64,000 nt of DNA from Crocinitomix algicola (GTDB taxonomy: Bacteria > Bacteroidota > Bacteroidia > Flavobacteriales_D > Crocinitomicaceae), in the NCBI RefSeq assembly GCF_001661595.2, contig NZ_LYPF02000014.1, positions 124,001-188,000 on the forward strand, given 5' to 3'. A program made the translations under genes and the position numbers. Below, in pieces: positions 36,951 to 44,837 of the stretch (position 1 is the stretch's first letter; every line of letters begins with the position of its first letter). The notes under the pieces are model-generated. The model was not told the DNA's origin and made no database searches. It worked only from the letters and a program-made list of their open reading frames with translations.

Positions 36951-39224
36951 TTGGGAAGATTTAAAAATACCTCAAAAGTTGTACTGTTTGTTGTCAGCTG
37001 TATTTCAATACTATTTCTTTTTAATATTAAAAATGTCGAATTTGATTATGATTTCGAAGCTTTTTTCGCTGATAATGATCCAGCTACAAAGTTTTTAAAG
37101 GAACATAGAAATAGGTTTGAAACAGATAATGATTTCGTTTTTATTTCAGTTGAACAGCAGAATGAAACTGTTTTCCAACGCGAATTTTTGACCAAAGTTC
37201 AGGCTTTAGTAGAAGACCTGGAAGAGGATAGTTTAATTACTTCCGTTCAATGTTTGACAAACATGACTGACTTTGTTAAAACATCGTTTTCACCGCAGGT
37301 ATTTAAGCGCCCCTACATCTCAATTGATCAACCAGCGAATTATGCTGCAGATAGTATCCGAATTTTTGAGCGTCCAGAATTAGCAGGGTTTATGATTCGG
37401 GATGATGCTAAGGCATTATTACTTGTTGTTAAACATCAGCAATACTTATCTAAAGCTAAATGTGATATTCTAAAAGAGAATTTATATAAAAGTCTTAATC
37501 AGTATAGTTTTGATGATTACACCTGTGCGGGTAGGGCGGTAGGTATTGGGTTTTATATCGAAGCCATGCAGTTTGAAACGCTCTTTTTCATAGGGCTTTC
37601 ATTTATACTGATTATCATTTTTCTTATTTTTATGTATCGTTCTACTTGGGGAGTATTAATTCCGCTGTCCGTTGTAGCAACTTCCATGTTATGGATTGTT
37701 GGTTTTATGACTCTAGTTGGTCAGCCGATTAACTTAGTTTTGACCACTCTTCCTTCTATTATATTCGTTGTAGCAATGTCAGATGTTGTTCATTTAATCA
37801 CAAAATATTTTGACGAGTTGCGTTTGGGGAAATCACAGTTGGATGCGATAAAAATTGCTTATAAGGAAATTGGTTTTGCAACACTTCTTACTTCATTTAC
37901 AACTGCTGTAGGATTTCTTACATTGTTGACAGTGGGTATGAGACCTGTTCATGAGTTTGGAATATTTACAGCAATTGGCGTGGTATTGGCCTTTGTCTTG
38001 GCTTATACCTTGCTGCCAGCATTATTGATTTTAACAAAACCGCCTAAAATTGCTGAAGTTAGTTTTACACGGAATACATGGTACCCTATTTTGCATCGAT
38101 CGTTAGGATGGGTTTTCCATAACTTTAAAAGAGTTTTAATCGGATTCTTCGTCTTAATAGGGATTAGTTTAGTTGGATTATTTAAGGTAGAGGGAAATTA
38201 TTTTCTTCTTGAGGACTTAAAAGAATCTAGTTCATTAAGACAAGATTATAAGTATTTCGATCAAGAGTTTATGGGACTTCGTCCATTTGAATTATCTGTT
38301 CAGGTTGTTGACTCAAAAAAATCAATTTACGATTATGATGTGTTAAAACAATTAGAGAGGATTGACTCATTTTTAACGTTTGATTATGGTTTAAAGCGTA
38401 CGGCTTCCATCATTCAAATATTAAAAATGGCCAATAGAACAGAACATGGGGGACAGGCTGATTATTATACTTTTCCGGAAGAAAGGGACGCTAAAAAGTT
38501 CATTCGTCAGTTTAAAAAATTTGATAAGAATGGTTTATTGAATTTATTTGTGGATTCGACAGCGACATTTGCGCGCTTTTCAAGTTCAACGGGAGACGAA
38601 GGCTTGTATGCTGTTCGAGAAAAAGATAAAAGGTTTGAAGAATTTTTTGAGACTGAAATAGATCAAAACTTGATCGAATACCAGTTTACCGGAACTGGTC
38701 ATCTGCTTGATAGAAACATGAGTACGCTATCAATAAACCTGACTAAAGGACTACTTTTAGCGGTTTTAATTGTTTCTGTTTTGATGGGATTTTTGTATCG
38801 TTCAATTAAAATGGTGCTAATCGCTATTATTCCAAATATCTTACCACTATTAATGTTAGCTGCTATTTTAGGCTTTTTTGGAATTCAATTAAAAGTCTCA
38901 ACTGCAATTATATTTACGATAGCATTTGGTATTGCTGTTGATGATACGATTCATTTCATGAGTAAATTGAAATTAGAACTCAGAAAAGGGAAATCTTTCT
39001 TATACGCATTAAAAAGGACTTATTTATCCAGTGGTCGAGCAATAATTTTAACCACTTTAATTCTTTGCTCAGGTTTTCTACTTTTAATGTTTTCAGATTT
39101 TTTAGGAACCTTTTACGTGGGACTACTTATCAGTTGTACACTAATGTTTGCATTATTGGCAGATCTTATATTTCTTCCGATTTTATTGTTGATTTTTTAT
39201 TACAAAAAAGAAAAAGGGGAGTGA
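36951..39224 (+). CDS. RND superfamily exporter, MMPL/HAE3 type
   Basis: 757 residues, built as two halves each with one N-terminal transmembrane helix, a large periplasmic domain and a five-helix bundle. The sterol-sensing/RND loop motifs are AMSDVVHLITKYFDEL in the first half and AFGIAVDDTIHFMSKLKLEL in the second, whose Asp pairs take part in proton coupling. About half the length of AcrB-type pumps, so a self-contained HAE3/MMPL exporter, possibly of lipids or hopanoids. The start is a TTG; the in-frame stop 21 bases upstream leaves only ATT or TTG, and TTG-GGA-AGA fits best. Divergent from the T9SS cargo gene. Confidence 0.85.
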   Translation: MGRFKNTSKVVLFVVSCISILFLFNIKNVEFDYDFEAFFADNDPATKFLKEHRNRFETDNDFVFISVEQQNETVFQREFLTKVQALVEDLEEDSLITSVQCLTNMTDFVKTSFSPQVFKRPYISIDQPANYAADSIRIFERPELAGFMIRDDAKALLLVVKHQQYLSKAKCDILKENLYKSLNQYSFDDYTCAGRAVGIGFYIEAMQFETLFFIGLSFILIIIFLIFMYRSTWGVLIPLSVVATSMLWIVGFMTLVGQPINLVLTTLPSIIFVVAMSDVVHLITKYFDELRLGKSQLDAIKIAYKEIGFATLLTSFTTAVGFLTLLTVGMRPVHEFGIFTAIGVVLAFVLAYTLLPALLILTKPPKIAEVSFTRNTWYPILHRSLGWVFHNFKRVLIGFFVLIGISLVGLFKVEGNYFLLEDLKESSSLRQDYKYFDQEFMGLRPFELSVQVVDSKKSIYDYDVLKQLERIDSFLTFDYGLKRTASIIQILKMANRTEHGGQADYYTFPEERDAKKFIRQFKKFDKNGLLNLFVDSTATFARFSSSTGDEGLYAVREKDKRFEEFFETEIDQNLIEYQFTGTGHLLDRNMSTLSINLTKGLLLAVLIVSVLMGFLYRSIKMVLIAIIPNILPLLMLAAILGFFGIQLKVSTAIIFTIAFGIAVDDTIHFMSKLKLELRKGKSFLYALKRTYLSSGRAIILTTLILCSGFLLLMFSDFLGTFYVGLLISCTLMFALLADLIFLPILLLIFYYKKEKGE

Positions 39225-39258: not shown

Positions 39259-39654
39259 TTAATCTACTTTTATAAAACGGTAACGGGAAAGGTAATCGTT
39301 ATATTTTCTGCTCAATACAAGTGTTTGCTCTGATAATTCTTCAATTTTGTATGTTGCCAATTCTCCAATTTTCAATTCTAAAGCTTCTGAATTAAATTCG
39401 TAGGATAAAACTTCCGATTCACCTTCATCGTTGATTTTTACGGAACCGTTTGAATTAAGCTCATCCCAAGGGCTGAATTGGTAATATGTGGTAATATCTG
39501 TTTCAGCTCTTAACTCACCTTTTAAATTAGTACCCTCAAATAATTCGGTCATTATTAGTCCCCAGTTACCGGCGATAAACTGTTGTGGAGCATCCAATTT
39601 GTTGCAGGATAAAATTGTTGATAATAGCACTGTTGATAATAGCATAGTTTTCAT
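39259..39654 (-). CDS. Small lipoprotein, lipocalin-like
   Basis: 131 residues. A lipobox LSTILSC gives lipidation at about Cys17. The rest is beta-strand rich (FIAGNWGLIMTELFEG, TYYQFSPWDELNSNGSVKI, LVLSRKYNDYLSRYRF), like the short lipocalin-type domains common in Bacteroidota lipoproteins. Its start is 12 bases after the stop of the CsgG-like gene, suggesting joint transcription. Outer-membrane lipoprotein; function unknown. Confidence 0.65.
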   Translation of the reverse strand: MKTMLLSTVLLSTILSCNKLDAPQQFIAGNWGLIMTELFEGTNLKGELRAETDITTYYQFSPWDELNSNGSVKINDEGESEVLSYEFNSEALELKIGELATYKIEELSEQTLVLSRKYNDYLSRYRFIKVD

Positions 39655-39666
39655 TTTTTAGGTTAA

Positions 39667-40797
39667 TTATGATTTTTTTCGCGTAACATTAAAGCCAAGA
39701 CTTACTCCAATCATTCCCCCATCTTTTTGGGAGGAGTAAAAAACATTTACAGGGATATTTAAGGCACCTGATTTAAACGTTCTACCTAAACCAACAATCC
39801 ACCGCGTAGTTATATCCAGTCGCCCTCTATTGTCAAGGTATCTATCATATTCATATCCGTAGGAATAAATTGGATTTTCAGCATATTCAGTCTGGTTAAA
39901 TTCGTACTCTGTCCAATACCTTTCTTCATCTTCACCGAATAAGTTTTTGTCCTTCGTACTGAAAAAACCTACGGATGTTTTAGAAAAGCCAAAAGAGGGA
40001 CCAAAAGCAATTTCCCAACCTTTTTTACCAAATCGAAAACCGTTCAACAAACTTACGCTAGGAATAAAGCGACCTTGCTCTAAACCGGTAAAATTTATAA
40101 GTCCTTCAAATAAGGCTGAAAAGTTTTCTGTTCCAACATATTGACCTTCAAATTGCCATCCTAAATTGGATACAAATGGAGACATTTCCAGTCCTCCAAA
40201 TTTTTTTTCACGGGTCATAAATTGATTTAAGTCACCAACAGTGTAAGCAAATCCCATTCTTGGACCTGAGTTGTTCACTCGCCCCACATTATTCGATACG
40301 ATTAGTTCATTTCTGAACATCAATTGTTTTTTTATGTCTTGATTTGGTTGAATTTCATGCATTTCTTGTATTACTATTCCAATCATTCGCTGCAATTCCT
40401 TTTCTTGATTATCAAATTCGCAAGTGTGCGTTTTTACAATTTTTTGGTTCCTGATATTTATGAGTTTCAGTGTTATGACAATTTTTTGTCCAAGCCCATC
40501 GATATTTCCAGATAAGATATAGTCTACATTAAGCTCTTTACCGAATTCGATTAAACATGTTTTGCCAAAGCATTGGTTAAAAGCTTTTAAGTCACTGACC
40601 TCTTGCATGTCAAATCGATCCAGTACCTGATACTGATTGATTTTAATAAGCTCGAGTTGTGCGATTGTCGATGCTATGTGATTACTTGCATGAAGGTTAA
40701 ACGTTTTGATTGGACCAACGCCAATGGTTTGATTAAAGCTTAACGTGTGCATTAAGTTTAAAATGAGTGTTATTATAAACGGTTTTATTCTTTTCAT
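39667..40797 (-). CDS. CsgG-like domain fused to a barrel-like outer-membrane domain, copy 1
   Basis: 376 residues. Signal peptide of about 23 residues (FNQT cleavage). Residues 25-155 resemble the CsgG/TolB-N-like fold: LELIKINQYQVLDRFDM, CFGKTCLIEFGKELNVDYIL, SGNIDGLGQKIVITLKLI. The C-terminal 200 residues alternate aromatic and glycine residues in strand-like runs (GPRMGFAYTVGD, GWQFEGQYVGTENFSALFEG, NGFRFGKKGWEIAFGPSFGF), as in outer-membrane beta-barrels. The next upstream gene is a paralogue. Role unknown; possibly a surface sensor or secretion-linked barrel. Confidence 0.65.
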   Translation of the reverse strand: MKRIKPFIITLILNLMHTLSFNQTIGVGPIKTFNLHASNHIASTIAQLELIKINQYQVLDRFDMQEVSDLKAFNQCFGKTCLIEFGKELNVDYILSGNIDGLGQKIVITLKLINIRNQKIVKTHTCEFDNQEKELQRMIGIVIQEMHEIQPNQDIKKQLMFRNELIVSNNVGRVNNSGPRMGFAYTVGDLNQFMTREKKFGGLEMSPFVSNLGWQFEGQYVGTENFSALFEGLINFTGLEQGRFIPSVSLLNGFRFGKKGWEIAFGPSFGFSKTSVGFFSTKDKNLFGEDEERYWTEYEFNQTEYAENPIYSYGYEYDRYLDNRGRLDITTRWIVGLGRTFKSGALNIPVNVFYSSQKDGGMIGVSLGFNVTRKKS

Positions 40798-40807
40798 AAT
40801 TTTAGAT

Positions 40808-40900
40808 TTAAAGAGTTGAAATCCCTATTAATATTCCTATTTGAACCAAGGATCTAACAACAGGTCCTTTAATCGAACTTCCTAGTTTTTTCAGTTTCAT
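40808..40900 (-). CDS. Possible 30-residue hydrophobic micropeptide
   Basis: An ATG at 40900 opens a 30-residue frame (KLKKLGSSIKGPVVRSLVQI, then GILIGISTL) with a basic start and one hydrophobic segment, between the two paralogous CsgG-like genes. No family recognised and such frames arise by chance, so this is only a candidate. Confidence 0.2.
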   Translation of the reverse strand: MKLKKLGSSIKGPVVRSLVQIGILIGISTL

Positions 40901-40931
40901 TGTCCGCTTTGCTTCTTGTTTAATTATAGAT

Positions 40932-42098
40932 TTATCGATTGATTTTGAAACGATTGTTAGTAACATTAAAACCGATGCTCGTTCCTATTGCACCACCATA
41001 TTTATTATAGGAATAGTAGATATTGAAAGGAATATTTAGCGTGCCTACTTTGAAAGTTCTTCCAACAGCCATTAGCCAATTGGTATTTATTTTAAGGGTT
41101 CCTCTTTTATCTAGATTTGTACTGAATTCATACCCTTCTTCATCAAGAATTTCTGAGGAGTACCCCGCATTGTAAAAATCCCCTTGCGACCAATACCTTC
41201 CTTCCTCTCTTCCAAAAAGATTCTTATTACTTTCGGCAAAAAAGCCTCTTGATTCTGATCGGAATCCAAATGAAGGACCAAAAGCTATTTCCCATCCTTG
41301 TTTCCCTATTCTAAAGCCATTGAGAATGTTCAGAGTAGGGATAAATTGACCTTGTTCCATACCTGCAATATTTATAATAATTTCCCCCAGTGCTGAAAAA
41401 TTTTCGGTTCCTATATACTGTCTTTCGAATTGATACCCGAGGTTGGTTGTGAAAGGAAGAATATCTAGACCTCCTAGATTTTCTGCTCGAGTCATGAAAT
41501 CTTGTAGTTCGCTATCATGAAAGTATGCAAATCCAATTCTAGGACCAGAATTGTTCATTCGGCCAATATTGTTATTCACGATTATATCATTTTTAAAAGC
41601 AAGTTGTTTTTCTATTTCAAGGTTTGTTGTTTGGTCATGCATTTTTTGTAAGACAATGCCAATCATACGTTGTAACTCAACTTCTTGATCATCAAATTCC
41701 ATTGATTTTGTTCGTTTGATCGTATTGTTTTCAACATCGATTAGTTTTATGGAAACCACAATTTTATTCCCAAAACCATCGATTGATCCTGATAAAATGT
41801 AGGGGACATTTAATTGCTTACCCAATTCTATAAGGCAGTTTTTTCCATAGCAGTTAATTAAATCATCTTCTGTTATAATTTCAGACATGTCTGCTTGATC
41901 CATGACAATATATTGATCGAGTTTGATGAGTTCAAGTCGAGCCAGTTTAGCGGCAATAGTGGGGGTTGCGTGAACGCCAGAAGTGCCGAATTCGGCCACT
42001 GCAATTGTTTGACTTTTAGCTTTAAATTGACAAAAGAATAAACAAGTAATAATGAGTAGTATTGATTGTGTTTTCATGATTATTTTCGTTGTTATCAT
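40932..42098 (-). CDS. CsgG-like domain fused to a barrel-like outer-membrane domain, copy 2
   Basis: 388 residues and clearly paralogous to copy 1 along the whole length (shared NNSGPRxGFAY, QYxGTENFSAL, GWEIAFGPSFGF and GRTFKxGxLNIPxNxxYS). The N-terminal domain again reads LELIKLDQYIVMDQADMSEI and NCYGKNCLIELGKQLNVPYI. Two starts are possible: the ATG at 42098, 4 bases after a TAGATTTG box and so leaderless, or the ATG at 42077, which gives a tidier signal peptide (MKTQSILLIITCLFFCQF). The mature protein should be outer-membrane. Tandem duplication with a 134-base gap. Confidence 0.65.
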   Translation of the reverse strand: MITTKIIMKTQSILLIITCLFFCQFKAKSQTIAVAEFGTSGVHATPTIAAKLARLELIKLDQYIVMDQADMSEIITEDDLINCYGKNCLIELGKQLNVPYILSGSIDGFGNKIVVSIKLIDVENNTIKRTKSMEFDDQEVELQRMIGIVLQKMHDQTTNLEIEKQLAFKNDIIVNNNIGRMNNSGPRIGFAYFHDSELQDFMTRAENLGGLDILPFTTNLGYQFERQYIGTENFSALGEIIINIAGMEQGQFIPTLNILNGFRIGKQGWEIAFGPSFGFRSESRGFFAESNKNLFGREEGRYWSQGDFYNAGYSSEILDEEGYEFSTNLDKRGTLKINTNWLMAVGRTFKVGTLNIPFNIYYSYNKYGGAIGTSIGFNVTNNRFKINR

Positions 42099-42266: not shown

Positions 42267-44837
42267 TTATCTTAATATTGTTACCGTTCCATTAAATTCG
42301 ACTTTTTTATCTGTAGTACTTTCTTTGGCTTGAACTACCCAAACATAAGTGCCATCTTGAGCAGTGTTACCGCCATATGTTCCATCCCAAGTACCAGCAG
42401 CATTATAAGATTCCCAGACAATTTCACCCCATCTATTATAAATTACGCAATGGAAATCATAAAAATCGATACCATCAATAAATACTTGCCATTGATCATT
42501 GAATTGGTCACCGTCAGGGGTAAAAGCGTTTGGAGCATATATGATAACATCAGAAACAATTTTTAAGGTGTGGGTTATGTCAGCAGAACACCCAAAGTCG
42601 TTTGTTAAAGTGAAGGTAATGTCATATTCTCCCGGTACACCTTCAGGGTAAATCACAACGGGTTCTTCTAACGTTGATGTTTCAGGGCTACCGCTAGGCA
42701 TGTACCAGTCGTATGAATCTCCATCCGAATTGTTTCTAGGATTAAGTAACACCTTTGTATTAAAGATAGTTGTTGGGTTTGGATTTATTGTAAAATCGGG
42801 TTGAGGAATAGCAACGCTTTCGAAGTAATCTACAATGGTGATTTCATTTTCACAACCGTATTCATTGGTGAGGTGTAGCTTTACATCATAAAAACCGACC
42901 CCATAAAATTCTTTAGAAACAACCGGATAATCATTGAACACTGCATCACCTATCGTCCAAACAGCTATATCATCAGTTCCAATTGGGAAACCATTGTTAT
43001 AGGCTTTAAAAACAGCGGTTGCAGGGTTACATCCTTTGGTTACATCAGAGTCAAAACTTGGATTAGGAACTGGATTAATAATTGTTTCAGTACAAATTTC
43101 TACTGGTGTTGTTTCACAGCCATCGCTAACGGTAACGCAATAGGTTGTGTTTTCTGTAGGGGTTGTTACAATTGTATTATCAAAATCAAGAATAGGAAAA
43201 CCGTTACCATTCCAACTGTAGCTATAATCTCCGTCTCCCCCAGTAGCAGTCACAGAAGCTCCTGAAGTAAAGCCTGGGCAAATGGAATCATTTTCAGTAA
43301 TGGTTAAAGCGATAGGATCTCTTAATGTGACTTCCATGCTTGTACTTTCGGAGATACAACCAAACTCATCGGTTGCAAAGACATTAACAACCACAGGAGT
43401 TTCAGTAGGAGAAATAATTTGTGTATCGGAGTCATCTGCACCATCAATATCCCAAGTATAAGTATAAGTTCCGCCTCCGCCTTCTGCAGAAGCAATAATA
43501 GTTGCCGCGCCATTTCTACAAATAAGGGTATCATCGGAAACTTCGATGGTAATTGGTTCGGGGTCAATTAATTCAATCTCACTTTCGAATTGGCAACCAT
43601 AATCATCCATTGAGGTAATGGTATAGATGCCAGCAGGTAGATCGTTAAACACATTTTCTACTTGCCAAGTTCCACCACCATCAATGCTAAATTGAGTAAC
43701 AGGAATAATTCCATCATTAATTACAGTAATTGTGCCATCGGTATCTCCAAAGCAACTCGGGTTAGTTGCTTCTAATAAATGACTAGGAGCTAAATAAGTT
43801 AATGAAATTGTATCAGTTTGCGTCGGACAGTAACCGTAGCTATCATCAACGGTGATAATAAATTGGTATGTTCCTGGGTCTTCAACCGAAATTTCAGGCG
43901 ATAGAACATCGTCATCAGGATCATAATCCACCGAAGGAGAACCTCCACCATCAAAGTCGTACATATTCCAAATAATATCGACATTTTCTTCATCAACTTC
44001 AATCGAAGCATCAATAGGGTAGCCAAAGTCAGGCGAATGGCATAAGGTATCATCAAGGCCAGCAAAAGGATTTGCGGGGTGAATAACGTAGACAGTGAAA
44101 GGAACTTCCCAAGTACTATCAGGTGAAGTAATCGTACAAATATAATCAGTAGTATCTTCAGGCCACACTTCTACAATTGGACCACCGAATGCATCGCTGA
44201 TGTTATAATCTGGCGACCACGAAAATGTGAGAGGATCAGGAGGTAAGGTACCTAAATCGAGTTCTGTTGTATCACCAAGACAAATAGTTGGGTCACAAGC
44301 ACCAACTTCAATGATGTAATCTTCAGCTTCACCAAAAGAGGCTGCGGCACAAGGGTCTATTAAAGCTCCAGCAGTTAAATATTGACATCTTACGCGCATA
44401 GTATAATTACCCGGACTAATCCCCCCTGGCACCATGAATGTGCCTGTGTAGACAGCAAAACTAGCCGTTGGGGAAGCATAAACTTTCTCAATAGGTTCGA
44501 AAGTGTCGTTATCATTCCAGTCAATCCAAACTGCAAAACCTTGAGCAAAAGAACCCTCTACCTCACATTGCATATTCATTTCAACTTCCATTCCGGGACA
44601 AACTTCGGCAACCATGCCAGTCACATCATAGTTCCCCGGAGGCGAGCAATTTGAGTCCATATTTAGAATGTCAACATTGGCCCCAACTGTCCAGAAATTA
44701 TCAATTAAATCGTTTGTGGATGCACCTCCACCGCTATAACATGGATTGAACCAAGTAGGAATACAGACCTGCGCTCTGGTTGTAGAACTGAGTAATAGTA
44801 AGAGAGGAAAAACAAAATAAGTGAGCAAAACCTTCAT
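42267..44837 (-). CDS. GEVED/PKD surface protein with T9SS type B C-terminal domain
   Basis: 856 residues. Signal peptide 1-22. Residues about 45-180 are a GEVED domain (FAVWIDWNDNDTFEPIEKVY, then GNYTMRVRCQY and SFGEAEDYIIEVG), often a carbohydrate-binding or structural module in Bacteroidota adhesins. Then come about six Ig/PKD/SprB-like modules, among them CFGDTDGTITVINDG and GGGGTYTYTWDIDG, with a Cys near many module starts. The end holds NAFTPDGDQFNDQWQVF, IYNRWGEIVWES and GTWDGTYGGNTAQDGTYVW, a type B sorting domain. Third such adhesin in the window. Followed by a strong terminator; promoter not evident. Confidence 0.88.
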   Translation of the reverse strand: MKVLLTYFVFPLLLLLSSTTRAQVCIPTWFNPCYSGGGASTNDLIDNFWTVGANVDILNMDSNCSPPGNYDVTGMVAEVCPGMEVEMNMQCEVEGSFAQGFAVWIDWNDNDTFEPIEKVYASPTASFAVYTGTFMVPGGISPGNYTMRVRCQYLTAGALIDPCAAASFGEAEDYIIEVGACDPTICLGDTTELDLGTLPPDPLTFSWSPDYNISDAFGGPIVEVWPEDTTDYICTITSPDSTWEVPFTVYVIHPANPFAGLDDTLCHSPDFGYPIDASIEVDEENVDIIWNMYDFDGGGSPSVDYDPDDDVLSPEISVEDPGTYQFIITVDDSYGYCPTQTDTISLTYLAPSHLLEATNPSCFGDTDGTITVINDGIIPVTQFSIDGGGTWQVENVFNDLPAGIYTITSMDDYGCQFESEIELIDPEPITIEVSDDTLICRNGAATIIASAEGGGGTYTYTWDIDGADDSDTQIISPTETPVVVNVFATDEFGCISESTSMEVTLRDPIALTITENDSICPGFTSGASVTATGGDGDYSYSWNGNGFPILDFDNTIVTTPTENTTYCVTVSDGCETTPVEICTETIINPVPNPSFDSDVTKGCNPATAVFKAYNNGFPIGTDDIAVWTIGDAVFNDYPVVSKEFYGVGFYDVKLHLTNEYGCENEITIVDYFESVAIPQPDFTINPNPTTIFNTKVLLNPRNNSDGDSYDWYMPSGSPETSTLEEPVVIYPEGVPGEYDITFTLTNDFGCSADITHTLKIVSDVIIYAPNAFTPDGDQFNDQWQVFIDGIDFYDFHCVIYNRWGEIVWESYNAAGTWDGTYGGNTAQDGTYVWVVQAKESTTDKKVEFNGTVTILR

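Follow-up and report, generated by a model that had tools for sequence, protein, structure and literature searches.

Two adjacent genes of Crocinitomix algicola encode members of a conserved protein family of known folds, in which a CsgG/TolB-N-like domain and an eight-stranded outer-membrane-type barrel are joined in a single chain, an arrangement found in no paper within the scope of our literature search (titles and the openings of abstracts, with most subscription journals outside that scope). The barrel is homologous throughout the family and appears as its constant part, and the domain in front of it can be exchanged. The genes lie in a stretch of 64,000 nucleotides, hereafter the window (contig NZ_LYPF02000014.1, positions 124,001 to 188,000), whose interval 39667-42098 holds exactly two genes, both on the minus strand and called here paralogues A and B. 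Open reading frames (ORFs) were assigned in our scripts by a simple longest-ORF rule, and the features discussed below are:

42267-44837, upstream of A: protein with GEVED, PKD, SprB-repeat and CHU_C matches (Pfam)
40932..42098, minus strand: paralogue A, 388 aa, signal peptide, CsgG/TolB-N-like domain and 8-stranded barrel (model, structure comparison; tree clade A)
41601..42017, minus strand: CsgG/TolB-N-like periplasmic domain of A, residues 28-166 (alignment, model, structure comparison)
40935..41573, minus strand: 8-stranded outer-membrane barrel of A, residues 176-388 (model, structure and profile comparison)
40808..40930, minus strand: remnant of the 3' end of a partner gene (NPW-motif, helical protein), between A and B (profile match)
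39667..40797, minus strand: paralogue B, 376 aa, architecture as in A (identity and profile match; tree clade B)
40321..40734, minus strand: CsgG/TolB-N-like domain of B, residues 22-159 (match E 4.9e-61 to a profile that includes B)
39673..40293, minus strand: barrel domain of B, residues 169-375 (match E 3.8e-96 to a profile that includes B)
39259..39654, minus strand: small lipoprotein, 131 aa, lipocalin-like by eye (lipoprotein-like signal)
36951-39224, convergent, beyond the lipoprotein gene: MMPL-family protein (Pfam)

Anatomy of the two paralogues

A and B are 54% identical across 371 aligned positions (E 9e-148) and are the sole two matches in their genome at E <= 0.001; the nearest named relatives, among the best 80 of 149 confirmed stretches, are Crocinitomix MAGs. 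The original prediction had described tandem paralogues of shared architecture that keep the motif NNSGPRxGFAY, and this is borne out: both domains of A are matched in B, and both copies carry the motif, whose core (N183, G185, P186, R187 and G189) is invariant across 49 homologues. The predicted anatomy, a CsgG-like domain followed by a barrel, is confirmed for A by an AlphaFold2 model built on the alignment of those 49 homologues and for B, which was not modelled, by its identity and profile match. The model of A has a mean pLDDT of 90.4 and a pTM of 0.55, the low pTM accompanying a poorly placed linker (residues 171-175, below 50), and comprises a signal helix (residues 8-23), an alpha/beta domain (28-166) and the barrel.

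Compared with known structures, residues ~28-160 of A are closest to TolB (Z 12.4), PelC (Z 11.3), LpoB (Z 11.2), FlgT (Z 11.1) and GNA1162 (Z 10.2), the matches at Z 11-12 covering about 110-120 residues, and a Foldseek search with the model agrees; the N-terminal domain thus has, in the model, the CsgG/TolB-N fold, with no CsgG chain among the 50 matches listed. By sequence profile, CsgG (PF03783) scored 11.9 bits on A against a gathering cut-off of 20.8, with B not listed; LpoB (PF13036) scored 12.7 bits on B against 22.3, with A not listed; and FlgO (PF17680) reached 19.1 and 17.4 bits against 22.6, so that membership of these three families by Pfam was rejected. Pfam and NCBIfam together returned only such sub-cut-off N-terminal matches over A and B and none over the barrel part, and a PDB sequence search with a 19-row profile gave no match up to E 10. 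The comparison with CsgG and LpoB that had been proposed for the N-terminal domain therefore fell short of the Pfam cut-offs at the level of profiles and held at the level of the modelled fold, which matches TolB and LpoB. Stand-alone proteins with signal-like starts (L147-L151) also match the profile of this domain, and two of them exceed the CsgG cut-off (L148, 35.7 bits; L149, 27.4 bits); by way of these intermediates the domain can be placed as a divergent member of the CsgG/LpoB/TolB-N clan, and its predicted CsgG-like fold is well supported. According to a passage in PMC3173608, Pfam places CsgG and TolB-N in one clan.

With the members of this clan (PF03783, PF13036, PF04052) the window proteins share the N-domain fold, seen in A at Z 11-12, yet they fall under all three Pfam cut-offs, and they differ in what follows. 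In 19 aligned homologues the signal peptide does not end in a conserved lipobox cysteine, and in place of the lipid anchor a barrel comes next; the model of A has neither a propeller nor pore hairpins, and where TolB continues from its N-domain into a beta-propeller, A continues into the eight-stranded barrel. Two cysteines of the domain, Cys83 and Cys88, are invariant in 49/49 rows and, for that reason, likely form a disulphide.

The C-terminal part, which the original prediction had taken for an outer-membrane-like barrel, has exactly eight strands in the model of A (179-194, 216-229, 234-245, 253-264, 269-287, 334-351, 354-365 and 368-385, the last with a one-residue break), besides short loop strands at 302-304 and 326-329, and residues ~175-385 match NspA, OprF and OmpA at Z ~15. 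Strand number and topology are those of the OmpA/NspA/OmpX-type barrels (Z 11-15). Strands 2, 4 and 6 lead into very short turns (230-233, 265-268 and 352-353; 2-4 residues), strands 1 and 5 into long loops (195-215, 21 residues; 288-333, 46 residues) and strands 3 and 7 into short ones (246-252, 7 residues; 366-367, 2 residues). Eight strands with short periplasmic turns are the OmpA-type fold, and on the usual reading of turns and loops both ends of the barrel would face the periplasm, so that the CsgG-like domain would hang there too. In OmpA the periplasmic domain comes after the barrel, whereas that of the window proteins precedes it and has another fold. Neither a Pfam barrel family nor a peptidoglycan-binding domain was matched up to E 1 in A or B, and the chain of A ends with the barrel. 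Seven polar barrel positions (R187, Q223, E225, E239, E248, R263 and E270), kept in at least 23/27 barrels of the three forms described below, would fit a closed, salt-bridged core.

Distribution of the fusion and age of the duplication

Within the family sample, 131/200 genomes match the fusion profile, far above chance, and a single-sequence query finds an equal number; of these 131, at least 11 match by the barrel alone and one, G008, by the N-domain alone, and some of the matches are fragments. In the order sample 97/199 genomes match, mostly at full length, and the suggestion that the architecture is not a common one thus fails within the order. Full-length fusions occur in families f1, f57, f63, f64 and f66 and in two genomes of f2 (G243, G682), the remaining 15 f2 matches consisting of the barrel region alone. 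Across the phylum sample (33/395 matching) the full-length form was seen only in the window's genome, G022 and G243, the rest being single-domain matches. Two proteins from another family of the phylum (L153 and L154) have a CsgG-like domain that matches the N-domain profile (E 4e-11 and 7e-12) and, as in the window proteins, a strand-rich part after it, which in L153 has a sub-cut-off OMP_b-brl match. Their C-terminal part differs from that of the window proteins in giving no match to the barrel profile of the window's family, and they are for this reason probably an independent fusion of CsgG-like and barrel-like parts.

The duplication itself is not recent. In a tree of 49 rows, A belongs to a group of 10 (support 100/97) and B to one of 9 (support 99/96), and each clade contains both Crocinitomix and a second group of tandem loci, which makes the duplication older than the split between those groups. 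Two fusion matches are present in 6/9 genomes of the window's genus. Elsewhere, immediately before the fusion gene of G604, there is a 65-aa fragment (L174:6362-6556) that almost repeats the beginning of that gene and is perhaps what remains of a recent tandem copy.

Linked genes and candidate functions

Neighbours were surveyed in 78 named-record loci, several of them truncated at contig ends, drawn from the best 80 of 149 confirmed stretches. Eighteen of these loci carry a gene for a protein that measures about 150-230 aa (one copy is truncated at a contig end) and in which a signal peptide is followed by two NPW-type motifs, an arm and helices; in 18/18 this gene adjoins the fusion gene. 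A model of this partner has pLDDT <= 55 over residues 1-70, followed by confident helices. In whole genomes the partner was found at E < 1e-9 in 24/200, beside the fusion gene (by eye) in 20 of the 24; this count leaves out three of 27 genomes (G008, G070, G188), where the match was weaker than 1e-9. Every one of the 24 has a match to the fusion profile, which is weak or fragmentary in G045, G072 and G184. In G181 and G191 the two genes are ~1.7 kb apart, in G135 they are on different contigs, and for G045 no barrel position is listed. At that threshold the partner is absent from 107/131 fusion-profile genomes and is therefore not needed everywhere. In one genome (G072:C65:11854-12354) partner and fusion gene lie side by side and both are apparently decayed, the fusion match containing internal stops and the partner match being a fragment only.

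In Crocinitomix relatives the partner gene sits between A and B. The corresponding gap of 134 nt in the window reads as the last ~40 residues of the partner (19.2 bits), a score that 0/500 dinucleotide shuffles reached (best 4.3), in a frame that stays uninterrupted through 40 codons of the gap and has its stop 10 nt before gene B. In a genome-wide search this was the best place (E 0.037), no other being better than E 0.08. The window's locus has thus lost its partner gene, so that A and B would function either with no such partner or with a different one.

Tentatively, and as a quite possible rather than an established function, we regard the fusion protein as an outer-membrane-anchored periplasmic protein-docking protein. 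The CsgG/LpoB/TolB-N clan acts by protein contact under the outer membrane: LpoB contacts PBP1B, TolB contacts Pal and TolA, and CsgG and PelC form rings. By analogy, the CsgG-like domain would be a docking module beneath the outer membrane, and the barrel, best read as an anchor in view of its conserved polar and presumably closed core, would be non-porous like the transmembrane domain of OmpA and would stand in for the lipid by which LpoB or PelC is attached to the outer membrane. The likeliest docking partner, where encoded, would be the adjacent NPW-motif protein, with a probably disordered arm that starts with the two motifs and helices that probably form an inner-membrane hairpin, so that the pair would bridge both membranes. 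In the window's strain, with the partner decayed, the lipoprotein may be the remaining close companion.

That so many matching genomes lack the partner would also suit a structural tether to peptidoglycan or its enzymes, with an OmpA- or LpoB-like role in wall growth or outer-membrane stability and no NPW protein involved, and the modelled combination of an LpoB/TolB-N fold with an OmpA-like barrel points the same way. The missing peptidoglycan-binding domain speaks against it, as does the neighbourhood, where the sole cell-wall-like cluster that could be named by eye (cluster 4, MurF/alanine-racemase-like) occurs in 24/78 loci of the best 80 of 149 stretches; we consider such a tether unlikely.

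The lipoprotein gene, which the original prediction had placed 12 bases downstream, is indeed a 131-aa ORF with a lipoprotein-like signal that starts 12 nt after the stop of B. It has no Pfam match, and one homologue (L168) has a sub-cut-off match to Lipocalin_8. Among 30 genomes of relatives, the window's own included, it occurs in three. One homologue lies 11 nt below a stand-alone CsgG-like gene (G008), another, counted from its first ATG, ~30 nt below a fusion gene (G023), and a third between DUF368-like and M14-like genes (named by eye) without a fusion gene (G031). Its rarity among relatives might have marked it as a local accident, against which the linked homologues in G023 and G008 speak, and we read it as an old member of the locus rather than a local addition.

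A second linked gene encodes a regulator, mostly of ~337 aa (cluster 1), found in 55/78 loci of the best 80 of 149 stretches; the one member tested matches BetR (25.4 bits against a cut-off of 21.6). In many relatives a BetR-type helix-turn-helix (HTH) regulator would stand upstream of the fusion gene. Could the protein then be an envelope sensor, in line with the label 'sensor-like' that the original prediction gave the periplasmic domain, its barrel or CsgG-like domain registering the state of the outer membrane and the regulator answering? Regulator and fusion-profile match do co-occur in 200 genomes (121 with both, 10 and 15 with one alone, 54 with neither; shared ancestry uncorrected), and in the sister family f2 a divergent regulator is present in both fusion loci (L146, L177). 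Yet the tested regulator has only HTH-type Pfam matches, and adjacency may mean merely that the regulator controls the barrel gene. The linkage also fails in several places: in the window's genome the regulator is on another contig; in 7/7 loci of f57, f63, f64 and f66 the three ORFs flanking the fusion gene on each side do not include it; and in 6/6 further loci of the window's family (L169-L172, L187, L188) it is likewise missing from the neighbourhood of that gene. A sensor seems to us rather doubtful.

Export was considered as well. CsgG-like domains might form a ring, as those of PelC and FlgT do, with the barrels surrounding or docking a channel for a polymer or protein; the N-domain has the fold of these two proteins in the model comparison, and upstream of A lies a CHU_C-type substrate gene of the type IX secretion system (T9SS). 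That neighbour, which close relatives of the window share, is confined to few loci (cluster 11, 10/79 sources), and constant linkage to the fusion gene was recognised for no further export gene. CsgG subunits contribute hairpins to one shared barrel, unlike A, where the model gives each chain an eight-stranded barrel of its own. The proposed test of co-occurrence with T9SS offered no contrast, since SprA is found in 198/200 family genomes with or without a fusion match, the two without it being incomplete. A ring-forming export component is, in our judgement, very unlikely.

Exchange of the periplasmic domain

The barrel family occurs in three forms, fused to the CsgG-like domain, fused to another N-domain that we call Sm-like (a name given by eye), or bare. 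Bare barrels of 192-220 aa are encoded by the six f2 genes that were read (L179-L184). The Sm type was met in genus g22, where 42 genomes match once each and, counted by eye, 30 have the full fusion, 11 the barrel region only and one a fragment; gene positions are listed for 10 of the 11 (G131 included; G193 has none). In the seven of these genes that were read (L161-L167) the barrel is preceded by the other N-domain, of ~60-80 residues, and no genome of the g22 sample has both types. An Sm-type relative from family f9 (L141) gave no Pfam match.

A profile comparison shows barrels of the CsgG and Sm types to be homologous (99.4%, E 3.6e-21, with 34% identity across 138 columns), and fifteen positions are identical in 27/27 barrels of the three forms (G185, R187, G189, G221, E225, G246, P254, G261, R263, E270, G274, P275, G346, P357 and G376). 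From this homology and identity it follows that the barrel is the constant part and the periplasmic domain exchangeable. In g22 the CsgG type has clusters 9, 4 and 1 before it and cluster 3 after it; the Sm-type gene occupies the same gene order, beside the same regulator, in 4/7 loci (L163, L165, L166, L167), with an SDR-like gene (by eye) between barrel gene and regulator in L163 and L165, and stands outside that order in L161, L162 and L164. The reverse separation is seen in G008, where a lone CsgG-like domain of 161 aa (L168:5930-6412) ends about where the barrel would begin and adjoins relatives of the window's neighbours (clusters 35 and 13).

In 7/7 loci (L161-L167) the Sm-type barrel gene is followed by one for a protein with Sm-like repeats and hydrophobic helices. 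In L161 two more small proteins with an Sm-like start (by eye) and hydrophobic helices are encoded directly upstream of the barrel (L161:1499-2643), perhaps members of a larger family of such proteins.

An NPW arm beside the CsgG type and Sm-like repeats beside the Sm type would be consistent with a modular membrane-bridging pair, in which a constant barrel bears exchangeable docking domains and an adjacent helical partner bears a matching module, the two being swapped together. The profiles of the two kinds of partner, however, compare at a probability of only 14% (E 0.0019), with single-profile matches at E 0.0029 and 0.0036 and at E 0.0015 and 0.014, and in g22 itself the NPW partner is present in 3/30 full-fusion genomes and adjacent in none, which lowers the odds further; we hold this joint exchange to be distinctly unlikely.

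To our knowledge, the CsgG/LpoB/TolB-N domains described so far reach the envelope as lipoproteins or soluble proteins, unlike the family considered here, where a CsgG-like domain is built onto a barrel of its own. Roughly half the genomes sampled from the order have a match to this family, for which the partner gene and the regulator linked to it offer concrete leads. Most useful as a lead is the way domains change while the barrel stays constant. One genus has, on homologous barrels, an unrelated domain in place of the CsgG-like one, and several of these genes occupy the very locus of the CsgG type; with domains thus swapped by nature, what each part does can be put to the test.
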